From: a bacterium
GTDB taxonomy: Bacteria > Hinthialibacterota > Hinthialibacteria > Hinthialibacterales > Hinthialibacteraceae
Length of the DNA: 64,000 nucleotides
Direction of reading: 5' to 3'
Assembly: GCA_016125385.1 (NCBI GenBank)
Contig: WGLV01000051.1
Span: 56,570-120,569, forward strand
The notes under the pieces were generated by a model that was not told the DNA's origin, did not search any database, and worked only from the letters and a program-made list of their open reading frames with translations. Positions 5,771-12,437 of the stretch are shown piece after piece. A program made the position numbers and the translations under genes. Position 1 is the first letter of the stretch, and every line of letters starts with the position of its first letter.

Positions 5771-6811
5771 TCAACAAATACGGGGAAGCTGTTCGCCGGA
5801 GAGGCGGTCGAGCACGCGCTCGACGCCCAGAACACCCCGCAGAACCACCGGCGCGGCGGCGGACATCTCCACCCGGCCCACTCGCGCCGCGCCTCGCGCC
5901 TGTTCACACGCCCGCAAAACATCCAGCGCACGATCGGCGTCTTTTTCCGCGATGAAGGCGGCGAAGCGCCCTTCGTTGGCCATATACAACGGATCGAAGC
6001 CCATCAGCTCGCAAGCGCCCATGACTTCATCGCGAACCGGGATGCAATCTTCATCAAGCCGCACTGTGACGCGCGCGTCCTCGGCGATCTCATTCATCGC
6101 GGATACCAACCCGCCGCGAGTCAGATCGCGCAGGCAGTGTACCTCGACGCCCGCCTCGAACAGCGCCGCGACCGCTTCGTGAACCGGGGCCGAATCGCTC
6201 TCGATCGGGGTTGAAAATTCAAGCCCCTCTCGCACGGAGAGAATCGCGGCGCCGTGACGCCCCAGATCTCCGTTGACGATCACCGCGTCGCCGGGGCGCA
6301 CCTCGCCGGGCGCGATCGTGAGGCCGTGTTCGATGACTCCGAGCCCCGCGGTGTTGATGAAGACGCCGTCGCCCTTGCCCTTGTCGACCACTTTGGTGTC
6401 GCCCGTTACGATCGAGACGCCGCAGCGGCGAGCCGCCTCGCTCATCGACTCAACCACGCGGCGCAGGACGCTCATCTCAAGACCTTCTTCGAGAATGTAC
6501 CCCGCGCTGAGCGCAAACGGACGCGCGCCGCTCATGGCGAGATCGTTCACCGTGCCATGCACCGCCATTGAGCCGATGTCGCCTCCGGGAAAAAACAACG
6601 GCCGCACCACATAGGAATCGGTCGTAAACGCGATGCGCGTAGCGGGCAGATTGAACACCGCGCTGTCGTGACGCTGGTTAAGCGTGGGGTTATCGAAGGC
6701 GGGCCGAAAGATCGAATCAATCAGGCGCGCCATCAGCGTTCCACCGCCGCCGTGCGCCAGCACCACGCGGTCATATTCATTTTTCGGGATGGGACAGGAG
6801 AAATCATTCAT
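5771..6811 (-). CDS. hypE: hydrogenase expression/formation protein HypE
   Basis: Start reassigned to [31 protein letters not shown]; PurM-like fold and C-terminal LPRIC characteristic of HypE. Confidence 0.92.
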
Positions 6812-6816
6812 GGTCG

Positions 6817-7920
6817 TCACCGTCCGGCATGTTCCAGGCGTCGATAGCGATAATAGGCCGCGCAGGCGCCCTCGGACGAAACCATCGGCGCGCCCAGCGG
6901 ATGTTCGGGCGTGCAGCTTTTCGCGAACGCGGAGCATTGATGCGGCTCGCGCGCGCCCTGCAGAATCAGGCCGCTGATGCACTCGTCGGGTTCGGCGGAT
7001 GACGCGTGATCGACCGCGCCGAACTTCGTCTCGGCATTATATTCGGCGTATTCGTCACGCAAGCGGAATCCACTCGCGGGAATCAGACCCAATCCACGCC
7101 AAAATTGATCGGACGGCTCAAACACGTCGGAGAGAATGCGCAGGGCGGCGGGGTTTCCTCCACGGCGGACGACCCGCGCGTAGGCGTTTTCGACTTCGGC
7201 GCGGCCTTCTTCCAACTGTTTGACGCACTGGTAAACGCCCTGCAGTACATCGACCGGCTCGAAACCCGTAACCACGATGGGGACATGGAATCGATCCGCG
7301 ATGGGCGGGTATTCCTCAGTCCCCATCACCGCACAGACATGCCCCGCCGCCAGAAAGCCCTGCACGCGGCAATCGGGCGAAGCGAGCAGCGCCTCCATCG
7401 CGGGCGGTACGCGCATGTGCGAAACCAGCATGGAAAAATTTGGCAGTTTTTCACGCCGCGCCTGATACGCCGCCATCGCGTTGGCGGGCGCGGTGGTTTC
7501 AAAACCGATGGCGAAAAAGATCACCTCGCGAGAAGGATTTTCGCGCGCGATCTTTACCGCGTCGAGCGGAGAGTAGACCACGCGCACATCGCCGCCGTTC
7601 GCTTTTACGGAAAACAGGTCGGTATGGGTTCCCGGCACGCGCAACATGTCGCCGAAGGAACAGAAAATCACCTCGGGACGGGCGGCGATTTCATGCGCCT
7701 TGTCGAGAACGGACGCGGGGGTAACGCACACCGGACACCCCGGCCCGTGGATCAGCGTAATCTCATCGGGCAGCAGCCGGTCGAGACCGTATTTAAGGAT
7801 TGCGTGGGTCTGGCCGCCGCAGATCTCCATGACGGCGTGAGGCCGAGTGACTATGCGGCGGATGGCGGCGAGCAGGGTTTGGGCCGCGTCCGGATCGCGG
7901 AATTGTTTGAGGTGATTCAT
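6817..7920 (-). CDS. hypD: hydrogenase formation protein HypD
   Basis: [21 protein letters not shown]...[13 protein letters not shown]...[13 protein letters not shown]. Confidence 0.95.
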
Positions 7921-7943
7921 CGGATGCCATCCAGAGAATCGTT

Positions 7944-8025
7944 AAGCGCCCTTGGGTAAAACTTTTTCCGCTCAAGAGACGCTCCGCCCAAAGTCTCATT
8001 CGCTTGCACAAGTTTCACCCGGCGG
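7944..8025. repeat. 82-bp imperfect palindromic dispersed repeat, copy A (between hypC and hypD)
   Basis: aagcgcccttgggtaaaactttttccgctcaagagacgctccgcccaaagtctcattcgcttgcacaagtttcacccggcgg; near-identical copy at 43546-43627. Confidence 0.9.
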
Positions 8026-8062
8026 ACTTTTTCCATGACCGGTTTTCCAAGCAATCGCATCG

Positions 8063-8314
8063 TCATACGCCATTGGCGGCGTCTTCGAGTTCGCCGAGCG
8101 CTTTCAGGTCTTCGAAAACCTGGCGGGCTTCGTCCTCATCAATGACATTGAGGGCGAAGCCGGCGTGAACGATCACGTAATCGCCCATTTTCGCGTCAGG
8201 AACATACGCCAGTGAGATTTGCTTCACAGCGCCCTGAAAATCGACCTCGCCGGTGCGATACACCGGGTCGGCGTTTTGAATCGATACGATCTTACCGGGG
8301 ATGCCGAGACACAT
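8063..8314 (-). CDS. hypC: hydrogenase assembly chaperone HypC
   Basis: Start reassigned to MCLGIPGKIVSI, the diagnostic HypC N-terminus. Confidence 0.93.
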   Translation of the reverse strand: MCLGIPGKIVSIQNADPVYRTGEVDFQGAVKQISLAYVPDAKMGDYVIVHAGFALNVIDEDEARQVFEDLKALGELEDAANGV

Positions 8315-10637
8315 GCTGAATACTCCCGCGCGCGGCGAGGGCCAATTGGCCATACGCCACGCCTCCGTCGTTGGATGGCGCGCGCCGCGCCAAGCGAGGG
8401 GTAAAGCCCTCATCACGCAGGCGACCGGCGCTGGTTTCACACAGATAAGCGTTTTGAAAACAACCGCCGGTCAACGCCACGTTGGCGATTCCGACCCGGC
8501 GCGCGGCGGCGGCGATCGCTTCACATAATGTATTATGGAAGCGCGCGGCGATTTGGGCTACCGACATGCCGCGCCGGACGTCGTCCATCAGCGCATCGAA
8601 CATCGGCGCCCAGTCGAGGGTCCACGCCTCGCGCATGGGCGAGCCGGAGATCGGCGAGCCATCGGTGAGGCGCTTCGGTTCAGCGCCGGCGGGACGGAAT
8701 TCGATGGGATAGTGTGACGAATCGGAGAGAGAACCGATCGACCATTCGAGTTCCATCGCGGCCTGCCCTTCAAACGAAAGGCGCTGGCGTAATCCGATCA
8801 GCGCTGCGGCGGCGTCGAAGAGGCGCCCCGCGCTGGAGGTCATCGGCGAATTGAGGCCGCGCGCCAGCATGGAGAGCAACGCCTTGCTCTCGCCGGGCGT
8901 AAAGGCGGAGCGCACGGCGGGGGTGGCGCGGTCAAAGGCGGATTCGCCCGCCATCTCGAACAGCAGGCCGAGCGCGGCGCGGCGCGGTTCGCGGACAGCG
9001 CGCTCGCCTCCCGGCAGGGGGAAAGGTCTCATCCACCCCACACGGGTAAATCCCTCCCAATCACAGATCAGAAATTCCCCTCCCCAGACGGTTCCATCCG
9101 GGCTGTAACCGCTGCCGTCCCAAGAAACCGCCAATACAGGCTCGTCGAGTTCATGTTCGGCCATACAGGCGGCGGCGTGAGCGTAATGGTGTTGAACGCG
9201 CATTAAGGTCAAACCAGCCGATTCGGCGTATCGCGCGCTCCAGTAATCCGGATGGAGATCACACACGGCGGCTTTGGGTTCGGCCTCGAGCATCGCGGGC
9301 AAGGCGCGGGCGATCTCCTGAAACGAGGCGCGGGCGGCGGGCGTTTCCAGGTCGCCGACATGTTGACTGAGAAAGGCGCCGTCGGACCGGCCAACCGCGA
9401 TGGTGTTTTTGAGATGCGCGCCGAACGCGATCACACTCGGCTCGCCGCCACTCAACGGCAATGGCAGCGGTGCGTATCCGCGCGCGCGGCGCAATACGCG
9501 GGGTTCGCCATCGATCACGCGCACGACCGAGTCGTCGACGTATCGCCGGATCGGGCGGTCATGCACGAGAAACACATCGGCGATTCCACGAAGGCGCTGA
9601 AGAGCCTCCCGTTCGCCGATACAGATGGGTTCATCCGTGAGGTTGCCGCTGGTGGCGACCAGCGGGGCGTTCAGTTCACGTAACAGGACATGGTGAAGCG
9701 GCGTGTAGGGCAACATCACGCCCAGCCGGGGATTGCGCGGCGCGATGGAAGGAGCGAGTTCGGAGCCATCCCGCTTGTGCAGCAGGACAATGGGCGACTC
9801 GGGAGAGAACAGCAACGATTCTTCAAGACTGGACGTCTCGCACCAACGCCGGACGGCGGCGAGGTCCGGCGCCATAACCGCCAGCGGTTTTTCTTCACGG
9901 CGTTTACGCAGGCGCAGAGTCATCACGGCGTCTTCATCGCGCGCGTCGACCAGCAGATGGAATCCGCCCAGCCCCTTCAATGCAACAATCCCGCCCGCGC
10001 GAAGACGTTCCACGGCCCGCAATACGGCTTCGTGACGTTCGGCGATTACGGCGCCGTCCGCGTTCCAGAGCGACGCATGCGGACCGCACTGAGGGCAGGC
10101 GTTGGGTTGAGCGTGAAAACGGCGGTCCGCGGGGGTGGCGTATTCAGCCGCGCAGGCCTCGCACATGGTGAAGCCACGCATGGCGGTGTTGACGCGATCA
10201 TACGGCAAGGCGTCGATAATGGTGAAACGCGGGCCGCAATGGGTGCAGTTAATGAATGGGTAGAGGTAGCGGCGGTTGGCGGGGTCAAACATCTCGCGCA
10301 GGCATTCGCCGCAGACCGCGATATCCGGCGAGATCAGAGCCGTCTTGCCGCCGCGCGTCTCGCTTGAAACGATGCGGAAGCCTTCGCCGCTTTGAGGCGG
10401 AATTTCTTCATGAATGAGTTCATCAATGCGGGAGAGCGGCGGGGCCTGCTCACGCAACCGGCGCAGGAACGTGTCGAGCCGGGCCGATTCGCCCTCCACC
10501 TCGATAGCAACTCCCTCGGGGCCGTTTTTTACCCAGCCGCTGAGGCCTTCACCGCAGGCAAGGCGGTAAACGTGCGGGCGAAAACCGATTCCCTGAACCA
10601 GACCTTTTACCAGGATGCGAAGCCGATGATGAGCCAT
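8292..10637 (-). CDS. hypF: carbamoyltransferase HypF
   Basis: Acylphosphatase domain (VKGLVQGIGFRPHVYRLA), two CxxC zinc finger pairs (CGECLREMF, CTHCGPRFT, CEACAAEY, CPQCGPH), YrdC-like and Kae1-like domains; overlaps hypC start. Confidence 0.94.
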   Translation of the reverse strand: MAHHRLRILVKGLVQGIGFRPHVYRLACGEGLSGWVKNGPEGVAIEVEGESARLDTFLRRLREQAPPLSRIDELIHEEIPPQSGEGFRIVSSETRGGKTALISPDIAVCGECLREMFDPANRRYLYPFINCTHCGPRFTIIDALPYDRVNTAMRGFTMCEACAAEYATPADRRFHAQPNACPQCGPHASLWNADGAVIAERHEAVLRAVERLRAGGIVALKGLGGFHLLVDARDEDAVMTLRLRKRREEKPLAVMAPDLAAVRRWCETSSLEESLLFSPESPIVLLHKRDGSELAPSIAPRNPRLGVMLPYTPLHHVLLRELNAPLVATSGNLTDEPICIGEREALQRLRGIADVFLVHDRPIRRYVDDSVVRVIDGEPRVLRRARGYAPLPLPLSGGEPSVIAFGAHLKNTIAVGRSDGAFLSQHVGDLETPAARASFQEIARALPAMLEAEPKAAVCDLHPDYWSARYAESAGLTLMRVQHHYAHAAACMAEHELDEPVLAVSWDGSGYSPDGTVWGGEFLICDWEGFTRVGWMRPFPLPGGERAVREPRRAALGLLFEMAGESAFDRATPAVRSAFTPGESKALLSMLARGLNSPMTSSAGRLFDAAAALIGLRQRLSFEGQAAMELEWSIGSLSDSSHYPIEFRPAGAEPKRLTDGSPISGSPMREAWTLDWAPMFDALMDDVRRGMSVAQIAARFHNTLCEAIAAAARRVGIANVALTGGCFQNAYLCETSAGRLRDEGFTPRLARRAPSNDGGVAYGQLALAARGSIQHVSRHPR

Positions 10638-10886
10638 ATTACGTATTGTCGCCGCCCTGATGCAGTTTGTACATAGGCGCCGGGGATTGAACAGTTGCTG
10701 TTTAAATAGCAGACATAATTAAATCAGAAAGCCTATTTTTCCACCTGATTGTATTATTTATAAAATCCACTCTCATTTATGATCAGGCCCTGATGGCGGA
10801 CTATTTTCTCTAATCATAAAATTCAAAGCATGTTACGTAATAATATGAAATAAAACCTGATGTGAGTGAACGGACTTTTTTCAACT

Positions 10887-10902
10887 TGGCGCCACGGTTG
10901 CA
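10887..10902 (+). promoter_or_regulatory. sigma54 (RpoN) -24/-12 promoter candidate 1
   Basis: TGGCGCC-ACGG-TTGCA; GG-to-GC spacing 12 nt as in TGGCAYR-N4-TTGCW. Confidence 0.6.
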
Positions 10903-10911
10903 GTTAGATAG

Positions 10912-10998
10912 AAATGTCACTTGCGTGACGCAACGCGAAGGCGACCTTCGCACTTTCCTCCCCAGCCCGGTGTCCCCATTCACATCGGGCCTTTTTTT
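10912..10998 (+). ncRNA. candidate sRNA 1: 5' hairpins, unpaired UUUCCUCCCCA, Rho-independent terminator
   Basis: Hairpin GCGAAGG-CGA-CCTTCGC, then ACTTTCCTCCCCA, then GCCCGGTGT-ccccattc-ACATCGGGC + T-tract; preceded by a sigma54-like site; paralogous to 11267-11356. Confidence 0.6.
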
Positions 10999-11240
10999 GT
11001 CTTCCCGCAAATTCAACCGAATCAATTAGATAAAAAACCAGTCCTCCATTTTGCTAGATGGAATTCGATAAAATCCGATTCATTGTGTCAATTTCAAACG
11101 CCTCTGTTGAATTTGGGACGGGAGGCTGTTTCGTCTTGAAACGCCGGGGGTGGAACCACCAATGACACCAGATTCGCAAATAATATGTAACCATAATAAA
11201 TAGAACAACTTTCGCTATCTAATATTATCCAAACACTAAT

Positions 11241-11256
11241 TGGCATGAAGCGTGCA
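11241..11256 (+). promoter_or_regulatory. sigma54 (RpoN) -24/-12 promoter candidate 2
   Basis: TGGCATG-AAGC-GTGCA; GG-to-GC spacing 12 nt. Confidence 0.55.
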
Positions 11257-11266
11257 TATAAAGAAA

Positions 11267-11356
11267 GACAAGAGTTAACCTAGACGCACAAACAGGCACT
11301 CTTCGTAATTCCTCCCCAAGCCCGATGTTTCCCCTTTTACATCGGGCCTTTTTTTT
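11267..11356 (+). ncRNA. candidate sRNA 2, paralogue of sRNA 1
   Basis: 5' stem AAGAGT...ACTCTT, unpaired AATTCCTCCCCAA, terminator GCCCGATGT-ttcccctttt-ACATCGGGC + T8. Confidence 0.6.
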
Positions 11357-11506
11357 GCCTGCCAGCCGACAGGGGGCGAGTATCCGGGTTGTACGAGTTC
11401 AGCGTTCCCCTTGGTCACTGATTACCTCTGATTTCGTTACCTGCTTCCTATCAACAAATCAAATCCGCATTCCGGTTAATGACACAATAGTCGCCGTACA
11501 GAAAAA

Positions 11507-11537
11507 CCGGGGCTGAGTTACCCCAGCCCCGGTTCAC
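11507..11537. terminator. strong inverted repeat, terminator for the minus-strand gene at 11562
   Basis: AACCGGGGCTG...CAGCCCCGGTT; on the minus strand followed by TTTTTC. Confidence 0.75.
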
Positions 11538-11561
11538 TTTGGACTATTACGAGAAAGCCGA

Positions 11562-12437
11562 TCACGCCATTCCGTCGAGGACTCCACGGATGTAACCGAT
11601 CGACTCGCTCATGCCGGGGAACGGCGCGTCGGCGTCCTTTTCGTACTCCAGCGCCACCAATCCCTGATAATTGATCTTTTTCAGCGTTTTCAACACGCCG
11701 GGAATGTCGATACATCCCCGCCCTACTTCGAGCGGAGATCCCTTCGCGGTCGGCTGAGTCTCATCCTTCAGATCGAGGTCGTAGAGACGATCCTGAACCT
11801 GTTCGAGGATCTCCGCCACATTTTCGCCGATGCGGACGGTGTGGCCGATGTCGACGCAGCACCCGATTCGTTCATCGAGCTGTTTCGCTAGTTTGTAGGC
11901 GTCGAGCGCGGAGGGATAGCGCTTGTCGTTGGGGCCATGATTGTGAATAGCGACCTTGATGTCGTATGCTTTCGCCATGCGGCTGAACGCTGGCAGCGCA
12001 TCCTCATCGGGCGCGGCGGTGATGACTTCCATCCCGGCGGCTTTAGCGTATTCAAACAGGTTTTTGATCTTGGTTTCGTCGTTGCCCATATAGACGACGC
12101 CACAGCCGGTCAGCGTCATTCCACGCTGGCGGATCAGTTCCGCCGCGCGGCTGACCTCATCCAGCGGAGTATCGAGCGGGAGGTGGAAATCTTGCTTGAA
12201 CTTGATGTACTTCAGCCCGAGCCGTTCGGTCATCTCCAGCGCCTCGCGGCGGGAGAACTTGCGCACGGTGTACGACGCCATACCGACTTTGAGGCCATGA
12301 AAATAATCGGCCGGCGCGGGAGTAGAAAGAAAACTCTCCGCCCTGACGCTGGGCGCCATTAATGTTCCGGCGCCCGCCGCCGCGGCGGCGAGAAATCGTC
12401 TGCGATCGATTACGGATGTTGCGGTCATTGGATGCAA
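11562..12437 (-). CDS. Tat-secreted sugar phosphate isomerase/epimerase (TIM barrel)
   Basis: RRRFLAAAAAGAG twin-arginine signal; CVDIGHTVRIGENVAEILEQVQDRLYDLDLKD typical of the AP-endonuclease-2 TIM barrel family. Confidence 0.85.
   Translation of the reverse strand: MHPMTATSVIDRRRFLAAAAAGAGTLMAPSVRAESFLSTPAPADYFHGLKVGMASYTVRKFSRREALEMTERLGLKYIKFKQDFHLPLDTPLDEVSRAAELIRQRGMTLTGCGVVYMGNDETKIKNLFEYAKAAGMEVITAAPDEDALPAFSRMAKAYDIKVAIHNHGPNDKRYPSALDAYKLAKQLDERIGCCVDIGHTVRIGENVAEILEQVQDRLYDLDLKDETQPTAKGSPLEVGRGCIDIPGVLKTLKKINYQGLVALEYEKDADAPFPGMSESIGYIRGVLDGMA

Follow-up and report, generated by a model that had tools for sequence, protein, structure and literature searches.

The question raised by this locus is whether two promoter-like elements in a gene-free interval drive small RNA genes and, if so, in response to which signal and against which targets. 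The window is a stretch of 64,000 nucleotides from a bacterium of the Hinthialibacteraceae (contig WGLV01000051.1). A preliminary description had read the interval as two paralogous sigma54-driven sRNA candidates carrying an anti-Shine-Dalgarno (anti-SD) motif. That account is supported, and is extended here by a third paralog, an NtrC-class operon, a shared enhancer motif and a link to amtB-glnK.

Two predicted RNA genes beside hypF

The gene-free interval (10638-11561) is bounded on one side by hypF, a minus-strand gene with its 5' end at 10637, and on the other by a second minus-strand gene, whose 3' end is at 11562. Both -24/-12 units described earlier lie within it, each matching TGGC-N8-TGCA, with CCTCCCC at 10957 and 11311. 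The 57 nt from the -12 GC to CCTCCCC are the same in sRNA1 and sRNA2 as first reported, but they are no family rule, the spacing to the C-rich motifs among relatives being about 43-99 nt. As also claimed, the two terminators are nearly the same (90% identity across 29 nt) and the C-rich motif is predicted to be unpaired (probability 1.00 in sRNA1, 0.97 in sRNA2). The predicted folds beat dinucleotide shuffles with z scores of -3.6 and -4.1. The features are as follows.

10699-10715, unstranded: candidate enhancer (EBP site) of sRNA1, TGTTTAAATAGCAGACA, from the palindromic motif common to 12 promoters
10887-10902, plus: sRNA1 sigma54 promoter TGGCGCCACGGTTGCA, from sequence; TGGC invariant in 12 family promoters
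10913-10998, plus: sRNA1 (type 1), predicted RNA of ~86 nt with +1 set 12 nt past the -12 C, from predicted fold and relatives in other genera
10935-10951, plus: sRNA1 hairpin GCGAAGG-CGA-CCTTCGC 5' of the motif, from compensatory changes among type 1 members
10955-10964, plus: sRNA1 anti-SD-like motif TTCCTCCCCA, predicted unpaired; conserved
10965-10998, plus: sRNA1 Rho-independent terminator, from predicted fold and compensatory-pair count
11084-11100, unstranded: candidate enhancer of sRNA2, TGTGTCAATTTCAAACG, from motif search
11104-11120 and 11127-11142, unstranded: two more enhancer-motif copies near sRNA2, from motif search
11241-11256, plus: sRNA2 sigma54 promoter TGGCATGAAGCGTGCA, from sequence; conserved in family
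11267-11356, plus: sRNA2 (type 2), predicted RNA of ~90 nt, from predicted fold and a close relative in G001
11309-11318, plus: sRNA2 anti-SD-like motif TTCCTCCCCA, predicted unpaired
11320-11356, plus: sRNA2 Rho-independent terminator, from likeness to the sRNA1 terminator, predicted fold and compensatory-pair count

The promoter alone is not significant, since TGGC-N8-TGCA occurs three times in the window where about two matches are expected by chance. Across the whole genome (G000) the consensus TGGCAYG-N5-TGC is not enriched, with 16 matches against 30 in the reversed control, and a lone promoter match thus proves little. This chance frequency of the sigma54 consensus speaks for reading the sites as ordinary terminators or leader/attenuator elements next to accidental promoter-like strings. 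Yet no same-strand gene comes after the sites ahead of a convergent gene, either in the window or at the third paralog in G000 and G003. Promoter, CCTCCC and T-run in combination are matched three times in the 5.5-Mb genome and never in the reversed control, a frequency far beyond chance, and all three matches are members of one family found in six genera. The third (sRNA3, type 3) lies at G000:C38:13975-14074 on the minus strand and contains a 23-nt core that is invariant in its type. Conservation across genera largely refutes the terminator or leader reading, which we consider extremely improbable.

Exact TTCCTCCCCA occurs at 10 sites in G000, two of them in the window and one in the third paralog; three others (L004, L007 and L008) were found to be without the sRNA architecture. 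Coding on the opposite strand was also considered; GGGGAGG is present there but no conserved ORF was seen by eye. A search of the window against Rfam at the gathering threshold gave no match. Adjoining the sRNAs, window positions 5771-10637 hold hypE, hypD, hypC and hypF (hydrogenase maturation, read by eye). Elsewhere in the genome, a promoter-like TGGCACGGCTGATGCA (G000:C2:347257, L200) stands 5' of an Hsp20-like gene and lacks the enhancer motif.

Three predicted sRNA types in six genera

Members in other genera were found by a strict pattern search of 98 genomes and a relaxed version applied to 14 genomes of the class. Outside the family, strict matches were about as frequent as in the reversed control and are not evidence; four records with the type 3 pattern, from a cyanobacterium, a Clostridia, a Gracilibacteria and Methylumidiphilus, were regarded as chance matches. 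When the tail without the promoter was searched with a covariance model, built from five of the seven sequences found, type 1/2 RNAs were recovered from each of the six family genera (E values of 1e-13 to 4e-9), the G002 and G004 sequences being new. Elsewhere in the class the model found nothing convincing (best E 0.07).

The window copies belong to one family, as their description as paralogs implied, but they are two subtypes with their own relatives in other genera and not a recent duplicate. Type 1 is encoded in G000, G002, G003, G004 and G005, and has a GCGAAG-CTTCGC hairpin (GCGAAA-TTTCGC in G005) followed by ACTTTCCTCCCCA, with CTTTTCC in G003; the G005 RNA carries two C-rich motifs. 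Type 2 is found in G000 and G001. Type 3, present in G000 through G004, has the invariant core ACATCCCATTCTCCCCATTTCGC and a terminator whose loop carries CCTCCCC. Seen directly in these sequences, the promoter, the C-rich motif and the terminator are kept among the six genera while the filler has diverged, which bears out the preliminary view of selected RNA genes with conserved motif and terminator. The motif is predicted to be unpaired in all members (probability 0.86-1.00).

The 12 family promoters all have TGGC, followed by A in 11, and 10 have GG-N10-GC. In G002 and G004 the type 1 promoters have TGGCAYG upstream and a -12 element TTGTT, with GT replacing GC, which we count against the model set out below. 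The stems show compensatory base-pair replacements: G-C by A-U and C-G by U-A in the hairpin of type 1, A-U by G-C in the type 1/2 terminator, and U-A by C-G or A-U in that of type 3. They were counted in a hand alignment in which the G002 entry at type 1/2 terminator pair 9 was left out; type 3 pairs were counted by hand because MAFFT/RNAalifold slid the terminator stem. Both window sites are almost certainly sRNA genes with sigma54 promoters.

As to other neighbors of the family loci, hypF and the type 1 sRNA are ~5.7 kb apart in G003, and ~4.4 kb separate rpoN from the type 2 sRNA in G001. One lone look-alike belongs to another phylum (G058:C27:76315-76426, L044). It has a TGGCATG..TTTGC promoter, a hairpin, TTCCTCCTCCCC and a long terminator, and is divergent from an enhancer-binding protein (EBP) gene whose product scores 517 bits, just under the 528.85 bits of the NifA cut-off. 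The likeness may be accidental, or the locus may be an independent case. The strict pattern had no matches in that phylum, a result that is uninformative as its gap limits excluded the G058 look-alike too.

An NtrC-class operon, a shared enhancer motif and amtB-glnK

The preliminary description tied its sigma54 promoters to the presence of rpoN and of an EBP gene. G000 encodes RpoN, and an EBP with a Sigma54_activat domain is encoded beside the third paralog. In five genera the type 3 sRNA is divergent from an operon coding for a PAS-HisKA-HATPase kinase, this NtrC-class sigma54 activator and a single-domain receiver, a linkage visible in the sequences themselves. Relative to G000, the EBP is 71-85% identical and the kinase 53-65%. 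An OmpA/Pal-like gene (named by eye) lies between sRNA and operon in G003 and G004. G005 retains the kinase and EBP without an adjoining sRNA, its type 1 RNA being located elsewhere, and this too counts against the model.

A palindrome of about TGTTTCAAA-TTTGAAACA is common to the 250 bp upstream of the 12 family promoters. Palindromic EM searches scored 43.5-49.9 against shuffle means of 29.9-35.9, with none of 25 shuffles as high at any width; the widths and the 250-bp limit were picked after viewing the sequences. With one genome left out at a time, Fisher p was 6e-6 at width 17 and 2e-4 at width 18. The shared enhancer motif is therefore statistically supported. From type 3 to type 1/2 promoters, or the reverse, the motif carried over only marginally at width 18 (p ~0.04) and not at all at width 17, a further point against the model, and the sRNA1 enhancer taken alone, with its own genome out of the training set, was weak (p 0.17 at width 17).

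Among the 16 strict promoter matches in G000, only three have a strong enhancer score. Two, sRNA2 and sRNA3, were part of the training set; the third, an ammonium-transporter gene, was not. This gene is the first of an amtB-glnK-amtB-glnK operon and has a sigma54 promoter. In 2.07 Mb of G000 the best four combined promoter and enhancer sites are those of the three sRNAs and this operon. The glnA gene was not found within the same 2.07 Mb.

In the model that we favor, with a probability of roughly 0.6, an NtrC-class response regulator would bind the palindromic enhancers upstream of the sRNA promoters under nitrogen limitation, and the sRNAs would act in trans through their anti-SD motifs. The best candidate for the activator is the EBP of the PAS-kinase/activator/receiver operon divergent from the third paralog. 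It would drive transcription by sigma54-RNA polymerase of the three sRNA paralogs and the amtB-glnK-amtB-glnK operon. As that operon would be transcribed together with the sRNAs, the signal is probably nitrogen limitation, a part of the model that we hold less firmly than the sRNA genes themselves. Two points count against it. The EBP scores under the NCBIfam cut-offs for both AtoC, the nearest, and NtrC, the next. The amtB link comes from one genome, where 26 of 2000 shuffles matched the enhancer score (p ~0.01).

An alternative is that the sigma54/EBP-driven anti-SD sRNAs answer another signal, such as carbon, energy or surface state sensed through AtoC- or CbrB-type activators, the enhancer likeness at amtB then being chance or cross-talk. 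In its favor, the kinase and EBP together have AtoS/AtoC as their best NCBIfam match, ahead of NtrC, the amtB link comes from a single genome, and weaker promoter and enhancer combinations are almost equally frequent downstream and upstream; over all candidates strong enhancer scores number 10 upstream and 5 downstream, a twofold difference only. Against this stands the place of amtB-glnK among the only three strong scores at strict promoters, and we consider a signal other than nitrogen unlikely, if the most serious of the alternatives.

Proposed anti-SD pairing, related systems and candidate targets

In the nitrogen model the sRNAs would be trans-acting RNAs of 75-130 nt, each exposing a C-rich motif (UUCCUCCCCA, UUCUCCCCA) once or twice and ending in a U-rich tail that appears suited to Hfq; an Hfq gene is present in five of the six family genomes (G000, G001, G003, G004 and G005) and was not found in G002. 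The exposed motifs would pair with G-rich Shine-Dalgarno (SD) sequences of the UGGGGAGGA type and occlude ribosome binding, lowering translation of a set of mRNAs. We consider such pairing likely.

The closest known systems are MmgR and NrsZ, MmgR being the nearest in design. MmgR of Sinorhizobium meliloti is a 77-nt, Hfq-dependent RNA that carries an anti-SD motif; NtrC induces it when nitrogen is limiting, and it is listed with RpoD and RpoN promoters (PMC7143759). The MmgR/suhB alignment (alpha-r8, Rfam RF00519) has a similar layout of a short 5' hairpin, UUUCCUCCC and a G+C-rich terminator, and a CCUCCC-type anti-SD motif, predicted to be unpaired, occurs here as well. The three paralogs score 17.8, 15.8 and 16.4 bits with RF00519, among the best sub-threshold matches. 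These scores are under the gathering score of 41, which places the RNAs in a new family of a known kind, outside the MmgR family. Unlike MmgR, they come from a distant phylum, where the paralogs are several, probably co-regulated, and in one case next to an NtrC-class operon. NrsZ of Pseudomonas aeruginosa shares control by NtrB/C and RpoN and a locus adjoining ntrC, but is ~226 nt, processed, and activates rhlA translation, with no C-rich anti-SD motif in its description (PMC8395346).

The other parallels are partial. CrcZ (CbrA/B) and Qrr (LuxO) are likewise regulatory RNAs driven by an EBP with sigma54; crcZ adjoins cbrB, Qrr and Crc RNAs come as paralogs, and qrr1 has palindromic EBP sites. 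However, CrcZ, at 407 nt, is a decoy for Hfq that bears A-rich motifs, Qrr has a quorum-sensing role, and neither has the anti-SD form seen here. CJnc230 (FlmE) of Campylobacter jejuni is 98 nt and RpoN-dependent, with two stem-loops around a 12-nt single-stranded anti-SD, but is mostly processed from flgE mRNA, has a flagellar role and carries CCUU (PMC11187230). NfeR1 (alpha-r14) of S. meliloti silences mRNAs, ntrBC included, through unpaired CCUCCUCCC anti-SD motifs (PMC10746234). It differs in its 123 nt and three hairpins, is Hfq-independent, and is activated by LsrB and repressed by NtrC. Its three-hairpin CCUCCUCCC layout is absent here, where one or two motifs, CCUCCCC or UCUCCCC, stand at other positions. 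The likeness to CcsR and RsaE drawn in the preliminary description is looser than that to MmgR, NrsZ and NfeR1. A full-text literature search for Omnitrophota and small RNA returned nothing relevant, and no publication on regulatory sRNAs from this uncultured lineage was found. The loci are conserved RNA genes whose promoters are predicted to be of the sigma54 type and whose motif resembles an anti-SD; they form a new family of a kind already known. An MmgR/NrsZ circuit design in a distant phylum would imply an old circuit or repeated invention, and concrete tests can start from the conserved core, the enhancer and the linkage to the operon.

The C-rich motifs are very short, repeated and invariant, with little other conserved pairing sequence, as might be expected of real sigma54-driven RNAs whose motif binds a protein or sequesters Hfq, for which the A-rich motifs of CrcZ are a precedent. 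We know of no decoy target that binds C-rich motifs. The motif is, moreover, complementary to SDs in use in these genomes, and NfeR1 is a precedent for such motifs acting on SDs; a role away from SDs seems quite improbable. About 75 G-rich SD sites of the form TGGGGAGGA-N2-11-ATG occur in the six genomes, UGGGGAGGA ahead of AUG being counted 76 times, whereas the reversed pattern occurs 5 times; these counts show only that such SDs exist.

Prepilins of three genera were among the genes behind 30 G-rich SD sites that we inspected. Prepilin SDs are richer in GGGGAG/GGGAGG (13/39 vs 65/1085, p 6e-7), in a comparison where the start codons of the other genes were guessed and prepilins generally have strong SDs. 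The enrichment is mostly due to that strength; once SD strength is controlled for, only a weak excess is left (p 0.02 for GGAG preceded by G and 0.12 for GGAGG preceded by G, uncorrected for the several contrasts tried). Prepilin mRNAs are a weak lead as targets. It is doubtful, though conceivable, that one NtrC-class two-component system serves the whole lineage, using sigma54 mainly for redundant anti-SD sRNAs and ammonium uptake, with the sRNAs shutting down G-rich-SD mRNAs, many of the ~95 prepilin genes included, at nitrogen shortage. The G000 prepilin set is unusually large, with 96 matches to the type IV prepilin N-terminus.

Two further terminators resemble the family tail. One, at G000:C26:10129-10178 (L193), has CACCTCCCCATG and the loop TCTCCTCCCCAA after the end of a sigma-factor-like gene (by eye) and may be a 3'UTR-derived RNA that shares the motif (covariance model E 0.23). 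The other, at G005:C39:69307-69355 (L182), lies just 3' of a gene, is preceded by TTCTTCTCCCCAA and may be an element of the 3'UTR type (model E 0.006).
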